A stretch of DNA of 64,000 bases. Source: Acidobacteriota bacterium. Lineage in GTDB: Bacteria > Acidobacteriota > Terriglobia > Bryobacterales > UBA6623. This document shows, piece by piece, positions 36,582-40,296 of this stretch. The DNA lies in the NCBI GenBank assembly GCA_016125275.1, contig WGMB01000009.1:186001-250000 (forward strand), in the 5' to 3' direction. The notes under the pieces were generated by a model. It saw nothing but the letters and a program-made list of their open reading frames with translations. It was not told where the DNA came from and ran no database searches. The position numbers were made by a program, and so were the translations under genes. Every line of letters starts with the position of its first letter. The stretch's first letter is position 1.

Positions 36582-36624
36582 CGGCGCCCAGGTGAAAGCG
36601 GGTTCGCTTTCGCACCGGGCGCCG
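36582..36624 (-). terminator. Long hairpin after tex
   Basis: Stem CGGCGCCC/GGGCGCCG (36582-36589 with 36617-36624) continues with GGTG/CACC and AAAGCG/CGCTTT around a GGTT loop, with small bulges. It lies 18 bp beyond the tex stop on the minus strand. No U-tract follows. Confidence 0.55.
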
Positions 36625-36642
36625 CGGCAAGGATCAGAAGTC

Positions 36643-39624
36643 TTAGATCTTGGTCCGGAAACGGTCCTGCAGCAGGCCCAATTTCTCGTTCAAGGAGAGG
36701 TCTTTGAGCTTCTCCTCTTCTTTTTTGCGCTGCTTTTCATCCGGCCCGAAGGAGCGGTTGATCGGCTCGCGATGACGGTCGTCCCGGCGCGGACGCCGAT
36801 CGCCGCGCTCGCCGCGATCCCCGCGGTCGCCGTAGCTGCGGCGCGCTTCCGGAGCCACCCGGCGCTGCCGAGAGGTCTCCCGCGGCTCACGGGTGGAAAG
36901 CGAGATGCGCCGGCCGCCGTCGACGACGCTGACGATGAACACCTCGATGCGGTCGCCGACCTTGAGCGCTTCGGGACCCTCGCGCTGGGCCTGGCTGAGC
37001 TGGGAGATGTGCACCAGCCCGTCCTGCTCGGCGCCGATGTCGACGAAGCGGCCGAAGTCGGTGACGCTGGTCACGACGCCCTCGACCTTCGCGCCGACCT
37101 TCGGCTCCGCCAAGGGTTCGACGTCGACGGCGGGCTCGGGAATGTCGAGCTTGCCGCGCGGGTCGCGAACCTGCGGGTCGAGCTCACGCACCATGGCCTG
37201 CAGCACCGGCAGCGGATGCTCGGCGTCCACGAACGGCTGCAGCTCCAGCGCCGCCAACGGCGCGGAGTCTTGGAGCGCCTGCTCGGCGGTCACGCCGGCG
37301 GCCTCCAGCAGCGCCTGCATCTTCTCGTACCGGCGCGGGTGCAGACCGGTCGAGTCGAGCGGATTGTCGCCGCCGTAGATGCGCAGATAGCCGGCGGCCT
37401 GCTCGAACACGCGAGCGCCGAAGCCCGGCATGGCCGCCAGGGCCTTGCGGCTGGTGAAGCGGCCCTTCTGCTGGCGGTGCTCGACGATGCGGCGGGCGAC
37501 GCGCTCGGTCATGCCCGGCGCCACGGCCAACAGCTCCGCCGGCGCCGCGTTGACGTCGCAGCCGACCTCGTCGACGGCGCCCTCCACGGCCTCGGCCAGC
37601 GCGGTCCGCAGACGCTTCTGGTCGACCTCATGGTGGCCCTGGCCCACGCCCAGCACGCGCGGGTCGAGCTTGATGAGCTCGCCCAGCGGATTCTGGACGC
37701 GGCGCGCCAAGCACACCGCGCTACGCACGGCCGGCTCGTAGTCCGGCATCTCCTTGCGCGCGGCCTTCGAGGTGGCGTAGATCCAGGTGCCCGCCTCGTT
37801 GGTCGTCAACCACTTGACCTTGCGGCCGGAAACCTTGGCCGCCACGCGCACGAAGCGCTCGGCCTGGCGAATGCCGGGGCCGTTGCCCAGCACCACCAGC
37901 TCCACCTTGTACTTCGCGATCAAGTCCGCCAGGTCGCCCTGCGGCGTCTCCTTGCGCTGCTCTTCGCGCGAACCCTTGCGCTGCGAGCCCTTGCCGCGCG
38001 AGGACTTCCCGCTGGGCGCTTGCTCGTCGCTCGCGGCGGCGGCCTGCTCCTCGTTGTCGGAGGAGTCGGACTCGTCGTCTGCGTCGGAGTCGTCGGACGA
38101 AGCCGATTCGTCATCCGAAGCGGCGGCCTCGGACTCCTCGGAAGCCTCGCCTTCCGGCTTGGCCTCGAGCGCGGCCTGCTCGGGCTTGGCGGTTTGCTCG
38201 GCGCTCATCGCGGGAGCTTCTTCGGCCGGAGCGTCCTCGGCGGGAGCGCTCTCAGCCGGCGCAGCGGCGGCCGGCTCCTCAGCGCTCTCGGGCGCGGCTT
38301 CCTCGGCCTGGGCCTCCGCAACGGGAGCCGCCTCGGGCTCCGCAGCCGGGGTCGCCTCGGGCTCCGCAGCCGGGGTCGCCTCGGGCTCCGCAGCCGGGGT
38401 CGCCTCAGGCTCCGCAGCTTGGGTCGCCTCAGGCTCCGCCGCCGGAGCAGCGCTCTCAGTCGGGGCCTCGTCCGTAGACTCGGACCCTTCGGCCGGCGCA
38501 GCAGCCTCGGCCTCGGCCTTCTTCTCGTCGCGCGGGTCGGGCCGCACGATGGCGACCTCGAGCACCGTGCCGTCGGCGCCGATCACGGCCGCACGCCAGC
38601 CGCCGGGGCGGCCGGTCTCGATGCCGATCATCGGAATCGGACCCGCGCCGGGCGTCAGCAGCAGCTTCCGCAAATTCTTCTTGTAATGCGCGATGGCCTC
38701 TTCATCGCAGCGCTCGTCCAGGCGCAGCCGCACCTCGTTTTCGAGCGAGCCGGCGATGTGGCCCTCATAGGCGCGCCGGGCGGCGTCGGCGAGCTGGAGC
38801 GAAAACTCCGAAGCCGGCACGCGCAGCAGGCGTCCCAACAGATAGTGGACGGCGCGGTTCTCCGGCAGCGACACGCGGTAGCGCAGCCAGCCCTCGCGGG
38901 CGCCGCGGCGGATGTTGAGCATCTGCCGCCAAGGCGTCTTGCTCACGCGAGCGGTGTAGCCATGCAGCGCCTCGAAGCGCTTGCGCAAGCTTTCGTCGCG
39001 ACCCGAGAGCCGGCGCCGCGACGGCACAGCTTCCACGATGATCTCCGACTCGGCGAACATCAGCTTGCGCAGGTCGCGCCGAATCTCGGCGTTCTCGCCC
39101 AGCCAACGCGCCACGATGGCGCGCGCGCCCATCAGCGCGTCGCGGCTCTGCCCGGGCTGCCCGTTCACATAGGGCTCGGCGGCGCCTTCGACGTCGGCGT
39201 CGGGCGGCTCCTGCGTCCACAGGAAGCGCGCCAAACCCTCCAAGCCCTGCTCGACGGCTTCGTCGGCCAGGCCCCGCCGCTTCGGCTTGTACGGCAAGTA
39301 CAAGTCCTCGAGCTCGCGGCGATCCATGGCGGTCTCGACCTGTTCCCGCAGCTCCGGCGTCAGCCGGTTCTGCTGGTTGATCGCGGTCAACACTGTGACG
39401 CGGCGATCGGCCATATCCAGAAACGCCCGCAGGCGATCCTGAATGTGACGGATACGATCGGCGTCCAGCCCGGCTGCGATGTCGGGTCGGTAGCGCGCCA
39501 GGTAGGCGGGCGACAGATTGGATTCCAACTGTTGGACCAGACCAAGCAGGTCCGCCAGAGGAACGTTTGCTTCCTCACCGACCTGAATGTAGGCCTGTGT
39601 CGGAAGACCGGTCAGAGCTTTCAT
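36643..39624 (-). CDS. tex: Tex-family RNA-binding transcription accessory protein with a large low-complexity insertion
   Basis: A 993-residue cytoplasmic protein, about 200 longer than typical Tex (~770). Order: N-terminal Tex helical domain (about 1-320, with LEDLYLPYKPKRRG), YqgF/RuvC-like domain, helix-hairpin-helix motifs (VNAAPAELLAVAPGMTERVA and KALAAMPGFGARVFEQA, about 685-750), S1 domain (about 838-910, VEGVVTSVTDFGRFVDIG) and a basic Arg/Asp-rich tail. The YqgF domain is split. Its first strands (PMIGIETGRPGGWRAAVIGA, ~333) are separated from the rest (KYKVELVVLGNGPGIRQAER) by ~195 residues of acidic Ala/Glu/Pro, then Ser/Asp. The insertion contains five 24-nt repeats (38329-38448). 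The RuvC-type Asp in the usual GLDPG is replaced (GIETGRPGG). Binding of RNA or polymerase is expected. Confidence 0.93.
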   Translation of the reverse strand: MKALTGLPTQAYIQVGEEANVPLADLLGLVQQLESNLSPAYLARYRPDIAAGLDADRIRHIQDRLRAFLDMADRRVTVLTAINQQNRLTPELREQVETAMDRRELEDLYLPYKPKRRGLADEAVEQGLEGLARFLWTQEPPDADVEGAAEPYVNGQPGQSRDALMGARAIVARWLGENAEIRRDLRKLMFAESEIIVEAVPSRRRLSGRDESLRKRFEALHGYTARVSKTPWRQMLNIRRGAREGWLRYRVSLPENRAVHYLLGRLLRVPASEFSLQLADAARRAYEGHIAGSLENEVRLRLDERCDEEAIAHYKKNLRKLLLTPGAGPIPMIGIETGRPGGWRAAVIGADGTVLEVAIVRPDPRDEKKAEAEAAAPAEGSESTDEAPTESAAPAAEPEATQAAEPEATPAAEPEATPAAEPEATPAAEPEAAPVAEAQAEEAAPESAEEPAAAAPAESAPAEDAPAEEAPAMSAEQTAKPEQAALEAKPEGEASEESEAAASDDESASSDDSDADDESDSSDNEEQAAAASDEQAPSGKSSRGKGSQRKGSREEQRKETPQGDLADLIAKYKVELVVLGNGPGIRQAERFVRVAAKVSGRKVKWLTTNEAGTWIYATSKAARKEMPDYEPAVRSAVCLARRVQNPLGELIKLDPRVLGVGQGHHEVDQKRLRTALAEAVEGAVDEVGCDVNAAPAELLAVAPGMTERVARRIVEHRQQKGRFTSRKALAAMPGFGARVFEQAAGYLRIYGGDNPLDSTGLHPRRYEKMQALLEAAGVTAEQALQDSAPLAALELQPFVDAEHPLPVLQAMVRELDPQVRDPRGKLDIPEPAVDVEPLAEPKVGAKVEGVVTSVTDFGRFVDIGAEQDGLVHISQLSQAQREGPEALKVGDRIEVFIVSVVDGGRRISLSTREPRETSRQRRVAPEARRSYGDRGDRGERGDRRPRRDDRHREPINRSFGPDEKQRKKEEEKLKDLSLNEKLGLLQDRFRTKI
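38329..38448. repeat. Five tandem 24-nt repeats inside tex, encoding AAEPEAxP-type octapeptides
   Basis: Copies begin at 38329, 38353, 38377, 38401 and 38425. The first three are identical (CGCCTCGGGCTCCGCAGCCG plus GGGT), and the last two differ at a few bases. The 24-nt unit keeps the frame and encodes alternating Ala-Glu-Pro octapeptides in the insertion of the YqgF domain. Confidence 0.75.
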
Positions 39625-39660
39625 TGCGAGAACTAACCCGAAGCCGTGCAGGGCCTCTAG

Positions 39661-39666: not shown

Positions 39667-39672
39667 AAGTTG

Positions 39673-40296
39673 ATGCCTTCGAGCCGGAGAACCCCCATAG
39701 CTTTCCGCCTCGCTCCAATCATTCTACTCACATTGCCGCTCGCCGCGCGCGGTCAGGTTTTGGAGTTCTCTTCGAACGGTCTGCAGTACCAGGCCCTGAC
39801 CCGCCAAGGGCTCACCGTGATGCACGCCCGCATGCCGCAGGCGATCCGCGATTTCGGCGTGCTGCAGGTGGCGATGAACAACGGCAGCCCGCACATCTGG
39901 AAGGTCAAGCCCACCGATTTCGTCTTCCAGCCGGCCGACGGCCGCCCGCCGATTCGCGCCGTCGCCGAGCGAGTGGTCATCGCGGACCTGTTCCGCAACG
40001 CCGGTCGCTCGGAGGTCGTCAAGCTGCAAGCCGCCTACGAGCAGGCTCTGTTCGGCAATCAGCACATCCGCTCGAGCAACGGGTATGAGCAGCGCAGGCT
40101 CTCGGCGCTGGCGCTGGGGGACCGCGGCGTGAAGGCCGCGGCGGCGGCCTCGGCGTTGACCTTCGTTGAAGACGAGCTCAGCCCGGGCGCCTCCACCGAC
40201 GGCGCCGTCTTCTTTCCCTTCCGCGGCCAGCCGCTGGGGCCGGGCCGGGTGGTGGCGCTGATCAACGGCCAGGTCTTCGAGTTCCGCGACGAGTGA
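39673..40296 (+). CDS. Exported hypothetical protein, 207 aa
   Basis: I do not recognise this family. Residues 1-28 form a signal peptide (an Arg-rich start, then LAPIILLTLPLAARGQ), so the mature protein is about 180 residues and extracytoplasmic. The middle looks beta-rich (LEFSSNGLQYQALTRQGLTV, SPHIWKVKPTDFVFQPADG). The C-terminal part (TDGAVFFPFRGQPLGPGRVV) resembles a fibronectin-like or small beta-sandwich domain. No Cys, heme or catalytic motif is evident. A TTG one codon upstream is possible, but the ATG at 39673 fits the leaderless -10 spacing exactly. It is divergent from tex and lies 57 bp before a sulfatase gene that has its own promoter. Confidence 0.65.
   Translation: MPSSRRTPIAFRLAPIILLTLPLAARGQVLEFSSNGLQYQALTRQGLTVMHARMPQAIRDFGVLQVAMNNGSPHIWKVKPTDFVFQPADGRPPIRAVAERVVIADLFRNAGRSEVVKLQAAYEQALFGNQHIRSSNGYEQRRLSALALGDRGVKAAAAASALTFVEDELSPGASTDGAVFFPFRGQPLGPGRVVALINGQVFEFRDE

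Follow-up and report, generated by a model that had tools for sequence, protein, structure and literature searches.

An Insert Predicted to be Disordered Interrupts the YqgF Domain of Tex in a Family of Acidobacteriota

A Tex Gene with a Split YqgF Domain

Tex is a widespread protein whose molecular role is poorly understood. In the window, i.e., the whole stretch of 64,000 nucleotides analyzed here, a Tex had been predicted whose YqgF domain is split by about 195 residues, which raises the question of what such a segment is, how it came to be there and whether the protein makes use of it. Pfam and an alignment to P. aeruginosa Tex (3bzc) confirm that the gene encodes a Tex, and put the length of the insert at 197 amino acids. 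The features of the locus are as follows.

36643..39624, minus strand: Tex gene, 993 amino acids (list of open reading frames, Pfam, alignment to P. aeruginosa Tex)
39379..39582, minus strand: Tex_N domain, residues 15–82 (Pfam, just below cut-off)
38689..39201, minus strand: Tex central region, residues 142–312 (Pfam)
38530..38643, minus strand: first part of YqgF, strands 1–3, residues 328–365 (alignment to canonical Tex)
38617..38619, minus strand: codon of Glu336, which replaces the RuvC-like first-strand Asp (alignment)
37939..38529, minus strand: insert predicted to be disordered, residues 366–562, 197 amino acids (alignments, composition)
38306..38445, minus strand: 24-nt tandem array, 5.8 copies, unit P-A-A-E-P-E-A-T (tandem-repeat detection)
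37939..37998, minus strand: basic end of the insert, last 20 residues, K+R 35% (composition)
37675..37938, minus strand: second part of YqgF, residues 563–650, including Glu610 on strand 5 (Pfam, alignment)
37156..37575, minus strand: HHH_3 and HHH_9 helix-hairpin-helix domains, residues 684–823 (Pfam)
36889..37107, minus strand: S1 domain, residues 840–912 (Pfam)
36646..36888, minus strand: basic C-terminal tail, 81 amino acids, net charge +8, with a conserved LSLNEKLGLLQDRF segment at its end (composition, alignment)
39670..40296, plus strand: neighbor gene divergent from Tex, 208 amino acids, without a Pfam match (Pfam, loci of relatives)

The protein has the domain order of the Tex family (central region, YqgF, HhH, and S1), with Pfam scores of 46.8 bits for Tex_central (cut-off 27), 80.8 for Tex_YqgF (27), 67.4 for HHH_3 (27), 36.5 for HHH_9 (23.1), 60.9 for S1 (22), and 31.9 for Tex_N against a cut-off of 32. 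P. aeruginosa Tex (3bzc, 2oce), reported in the accessible part of PMC13340108 to bind RNA and DNA, and E. coli YhgF share this order and match the window protein strongly over residues 30–363 and 564–947; in the alignment to 3bzc, only 11 residues of the latter lie between the two aligned parts. Canonical Tex have no insert and, in those aligned, keep the first-strand Asp and the GNGTASRE motif. Instead of a continuous YqgF fold with a short connector from strand 3 to the following helix, the window's Tex has residues 366–562 placed between strand 3 and the helix leading to strand 4, so that the predicted separation of the first RuvC-like strands from the rest holds, and the Tex_YqgF match covers only positions 37–126 of the 126 in the profile (residues 555–644). 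We do not take the interruption to exclude membership in the Tex family, because all other features match and both flanks align. The eukaryotic Spt6 and SRBD1 are Tex homologs with a YqgF-like domain; the C-terminal part of the window's YqgF matches the SPT6 YqgF model of Pfam below its cut-off, and residues 608–794 match human SPT6 (8a3y). No other Tex was found in the window's genome.

The insert comprises 58 A, 43 E, 22 P, 22 S and 13 D among its 197 residues (29% Ala, 22% Glu, 11% Pro, 11% Ser), with only 2% large hydrophobic residues. Its 56 D+E and 12 K+R give a net charge of −44, while its last 20 residues are basic (net +4). The five 24-nt repeats originally predicted belong to an array with a period of 24 nt and 89% matches, in which five clear 8-residue copies (residues 394–433) differ by synonymous as well as other changes.

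The Insert in the Window's Family and Beyond

Relatives are denoted by f for family, g for genus, G for genome and L for locus, with f1 being the family of the window. Tex is present in 17 of the 18 f1 genomes, including the window's. A YqgF match was obtained in 16 of the 18, with the first third of the profile missing in all 16; the remaining Tex, from G011 (35% identity, insert of 70 amino acids), was found by a later protein search, and the same kind of search found no Tex in G002, an f1 genome that is 93% complete. All 17 Tex carry an insert at the window's site, ranging from 70 to 197 amino acids, although the f1 Tex are deeply divergent from each other (35–42% identity).

The divergent gene at 39670–40296 adjoins Tex in all 15 f1 relatives whose loci were fetched, and the locus has therefore been inherited within the family; this gene was not detected at 59 Tex loci from other families (some genomes counted twice). 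By eye, the start of its product resembles a signal peptide. Tex itself was found in 17/18 f1 genomes vs. 17/41 f3 genomes searched (Fisher p = 1.3e-4 with relatedness ignored, the f1 figure including an extra protein search that the f3 figure does not).

An array of 24-nt units with more than three copies is confined to the window within f1, and its copy number, as assembled, could be wrong. Tandem repeats may be assembled wrongly, and a long antisense frame runs opposite to Tex (36592–39636, plus strand, 1014 residues), likely as a by-product of the high G+C, so one might suspect an artefact of assembly or gene calling, or two genes wrongly fused. However, the other 16 f1 genomes have an insert in the same place with the frame unbroken, which excludes chance and makes an assembly artefact an unlikely source of the window's insert, and both halves of the protein align to one canonical Tex. 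We thus regard an artefact of any of these kinds as highly improbable.

Outside f1, the short connector originally predicted for most Tex was recovered. In the order-mates (families f2 and f3), the connector after the anchor has 8–10 residues in 18/18 Tex, and in the class as a whole, where 105 of the 299 genomes searched had a YqgF match, the domain is unbroken in 82, has an insert in 20 and belongs to broken genes in three (G137, G141, and G210, counted as neither split nor unbroken). An insert is not a property of most Tex homologs compared here. The 20 carriers comprise seven genomes of f1, two of f5 genus g47 and 11 of f9. The f5 g47 inserts lie at the window's site; G070 has 180 extra residues built on a 24-nt unit in 13.8 copies, and the insert of G096 is cut by the contig end. 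In f9, by contrast, the inserts occupy a second site, before strand 5, with 89–277 extra residues in 10 copies (L057–L066, L071), an 11th copy being cut by its contig.

The phylum-wide search covered 396 genomes, 135 of them with a YqgF match, and added f42, in which ten genomes encode a canonical Tex along with a second copy that is split at the window's site (e.g., L080, L095 of G554). The second copy is long, with altered YqgF motifs, a basic tail, and an insert that adds 43–274 residues (nine measurable copies); five f42 genomes of other genera have a Tex of this second type with the same altered motifs and tail but without the insert. Among annotated plasmids, 117 records matched Tex, and 27 near-full-length matches among the 30 listed span 1.9–2.2 kb, too short to accommodate an insert of the window's size. 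Alignment of Tex from the Acidobacteriota thus makes the insert a feature of the whole of f1, with independent recurrence elsewhere. We found no description of Tex inserts of this kind in the literature searched, mostly without subscription papers.

Separate Origins of the Inserts

A tree of 33 rows, inferred under a mixture model with the YqgF columns excluded, recovers f1 as one clade with full support. The placement of this clade is ambiguous, either nearer the f2/f3/f11 type or nearer the f5/f9/f42 type (AU p = 0.43 and 0.45 for the two placements). The fewest changes on the tree are three for the window's site and four when the second site is included, and although such a count does not tell gain from loss, the insert-free relatives that branch within both f5 and f42 make repeated gain the simpler interpretation. 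A constraint that unites all carriers at the first site is rejected (log-likelihood lower by 163, p = 1.6e-67), and so is one that unites f1 with only the f42 carriers (lower by 51, p = 9e-4). On these trees, a single origin of the inserts at the window's site is rejected, and those of f42 and f5 g47 are their own.

The f1 Tex was also considered as a transferred copy of the second Tex of f42, which the first tree, inferred after removal of 10 rows that were fragmentary or redundant, joined to it with a support of 0.98; given the ambiguous placement of f1 in the later tree, we do not claim such a transfer.

The YqgF Domain as a Putative Scaffold

The first strand of the window's YqgF reads GIETG vs. 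GIDPG in canonical Tex, so that the predicted replacement of the RuvC-like Asp is borne out, with Glu336 in its place. The nuclease-type Asp is Glu in all 17 f1 Tex (16 aligned plus G011) and, outside f1, in a single aligned sequence, from f9 g73; two rows with other letters at this site are fragments without the N-terminal part. The acidic residue of strand 5 is kept in the window (Glu610) and, according to the alignment, lost or shifted in most other f1 members. Whether nuclease activity was lost can hardly be judged from the Asp-to-Glu change, since the available text of PMC3985635 describes Tex in general as being without the third carboxylate, and as a protein whose nuclease activity is not confirmed.

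Motif changes and inserts arose in a different order in different lineages. In f9 g56 and g70 the insert is present and the YqgF motifs are intact, whereas in the insert-free genera of f42 the motifs are altered; the insert thus neither depends on the loss of the motifs nor causes it. The YqgF domain of the window's Tex, with its altered motifs, would be a folded scaffold and not a nuclease.

In-frame Growth and Constraint

Many inserts contain tandem repeats, with units of 12, 15, 24, 30, 60, and 156–204 nt, all of them multiples of three; the largest are direct repeats present in five of the six genomes of f9 g43. Insert length differs between close relatives, from 101 to 119 amino acids among six close species of g5 and from 158 to 277 extra residues in f9 g43. 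Repeat units divisible by three, along with length differences between close species, fit in-frame tandem duplication, by which the loop appears to have grown and still to change its length.

Ratios of dN/dS were estimated for the insert, for YqgF and for the rest of the protein. Among the six close species, they are 0.20–0.62, 0.07–0.18, and 0.07–0.12, respectively, and in f9 g43 0.34–0.78, 0.03–0.15, and 0.12–0.29, with 15 non-independent pairs in each case and with estimates that are affected by repeat misalignment (e.g., an insert dS of 1.13 in one f42 pair). A pair from f9 g56 with saturated dS was dropped from the counts. Neutral simulation of such inserts gave median dN/dS of 0.77–1.01, with lower bounds of 0.38–0.64. 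The insert therefore reads as being under weak to moderate constraint, evolving faster than the core yet below the neutral expectation, and the altered YqgF core is, by the same ratios, under strong purifying selection. A relaxed decay of YqgF is ruled out for the present day, as its dN/dS is as low as that of the rest of the core.

It is nevertheless possible, if somewhat doubtful, that the insert is tolerated filler, i.e., an exposed loop of a non-catalytic domain to which slippage adds nearly harmless in-frame A/E/P-rich repeats without any function. The faster evolution of the inserts relative to the core, their variable length in close species, their differences in charge and sequence between genera and the fresh tandem arrays within them all argue for such an explanation. 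However, the insert has never been lost in the 17 Tex of a family as divergent as f1, and in most close pairs its dN/dS is lower than in the neutral simulation. Further, such stretches are rare nearby: a rough scan, which covered 162 frames chosen from the window and from the loci of 15 f1 relatives, flagged Tex in 15 of the 16 stretches and only five other frames, all of which are in the window and four of which are apparently over-extended at the N terminus. A GC-rich genome alone is not sufficient either, because the order-mates with canonical Tex have no insert.

Charge, Disorder, and the C-terminal Tail

The predicted acidic nature of the insert stands for the window and for most inserts (33/37 are net negative), but not for 4 of the 17 in f1, where three of the 16 aligned inserts and that of G011 are net positive. 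The charge-hydropathy rule places 30/38 inserts on the disordered side vs. 1/79 cores, the other eight inserts falling on the ordered side, mostly by a small margin; the loop is thus predicted to be disordered. A single-sequence structure model of the window's Tex had a mean pLDDT of 42, too low to use.

The tail after S1 is long and basic in all 36 insert carriers in which it could be read (74–131 amino acids, net +8 to +24). By contrast, the tail of E. coli YhgF has 53 residues and a net charge of +4, and insert-free Tex have a tail of at most 62 amino acids in 33 of 43 cases, one of the other 10 being a fragment of a split gene. Long basic tails without an insert exist in relatives from f5 and f42, and the tail therefore does not require the loop. 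A simple pairing of charge between insert and tail is rejected, as the correlation in f1 has the wrong sign, with more acidic inserts accompanying less basic tails (Spearman +0.57, n = 16; +0.74, n = 10 non-redundant).

The insert might alternatively be a docking arm, whose short linear motifs or basic end would attach to RNA polymerase, the ribosome, the nucleoid, or a similar partner, in the manner of the disordered region that Spt6 has at its N terminus. Consistent with this, the last 20 residues of f1 inserts have 20–40% K+R in 12/16, so that several f1 lineages retain the basic end, and this end is nearly identical across the six close species; E. coli YhgF is also reported, in the accessible part of PMC13298495, to bind sigma70. 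However, no motif common to all f1 inserts was found by eye, and the inserts of f42, f5, and f9 mostly lack a basic end. We consider a docking role unlikely, but take both it and tolerated filler seriously as rivals of the account that follows.

A Possible Tethered Polyanion

Taken together, we tentatively favor, as a possible rather than a probable account, that the window's Tex is a family-specific form in which a YqgF scaffold carries a disordered, mostly acidic loop that tunes nucleic-acid binding. In this proposal, the YqgF domain with altered catalytic-site motifs would serve as the folded scaffold, and its loop between strand 3 and the next helix would hold the long disordered, mostly acidic segment with its basic end. 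With lower confidence, and by analogy to Hfq with its acidic tip and HMGB1 with its D/E repeats, the loop might act as a tethered polyanion and spacer. By transiently occupying the basic tail and the nucleic-acid-binding surfaces of HhH and S1, in competition with RNA or DNA, it would limit non-specific binding and speed release. What selection may maintain, as the comparisons above bear out in part, is the disorder of the loop, its composition, and a minimum length of about 70 residues, but not its sequence.

There is precedent for such a mechanism. Hfq, through its acidic C-terminal tip, and HMGB1, through its D/E repeats, each have a disordered acidic segment tethered to a nucleic-acid binder, and autoinhibition has been measured for both, according to the accessible parts of the respective reports (PMC5606850; PMC10250230). 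As described there, however, the acidic segments are terminal, whereas in the window's Tex the segment lies within a folded domain, as a loop. The tethered-polyanion reading is supported by the inserts in 17/17 f1 Tex, the predicted disorder, the coexistence of acidic inserts and basic tails, the mostly short tails of insert-free Tex, the several origins, the constraint and this precedent. Against it stand the four positive inserts of f1, the wrong-sign correlation, the long tails of insert-free f5 and f42 relatives and the eight inserts that the charge-hydropathy rule classes as ordered.

That similar loops arose separately in several families suggests a recurring way to tune Tex. A bolder version, which we hold to be rather unlikely, is that a pseudonuclease domain in an Spt6/Tex relative was turned at least three to four times in one phylum into the holder of a polyanionic loop that grew by repeats and autoregulates the binding of nucleic acids, i.e., a convergent intramolecular mimic of nucleic acid within a folded domain, with repeat number as an evolvable dial.

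The proteins compared here form a natural series, with canonical Tex, altered YqgF without the insert (f42 genera), the insert with intact motifs (f9 g56 and g70), and both together (f1, f42 g142, and f9 g43), which allows the contributions of YqgF, tail, and loop to be separated. The independent origins, in turn, provide a test set for distinguishing selection from mere tolerance of disordered inserts in proteins that bind nucleic acids.

Two minor observations concern the ends of Tex across the phylum. Many Tex tails in the phylum end in an EK(I/L)xxLQxKF-like or a KLAALxxRWK-like sequence, depending on the lineage. In f37, many Tex frames have 850–1197 residues with an unbroken YqgF match, and may owe their extra length to an extension at a terminus or merely to a frame that is open upstream.
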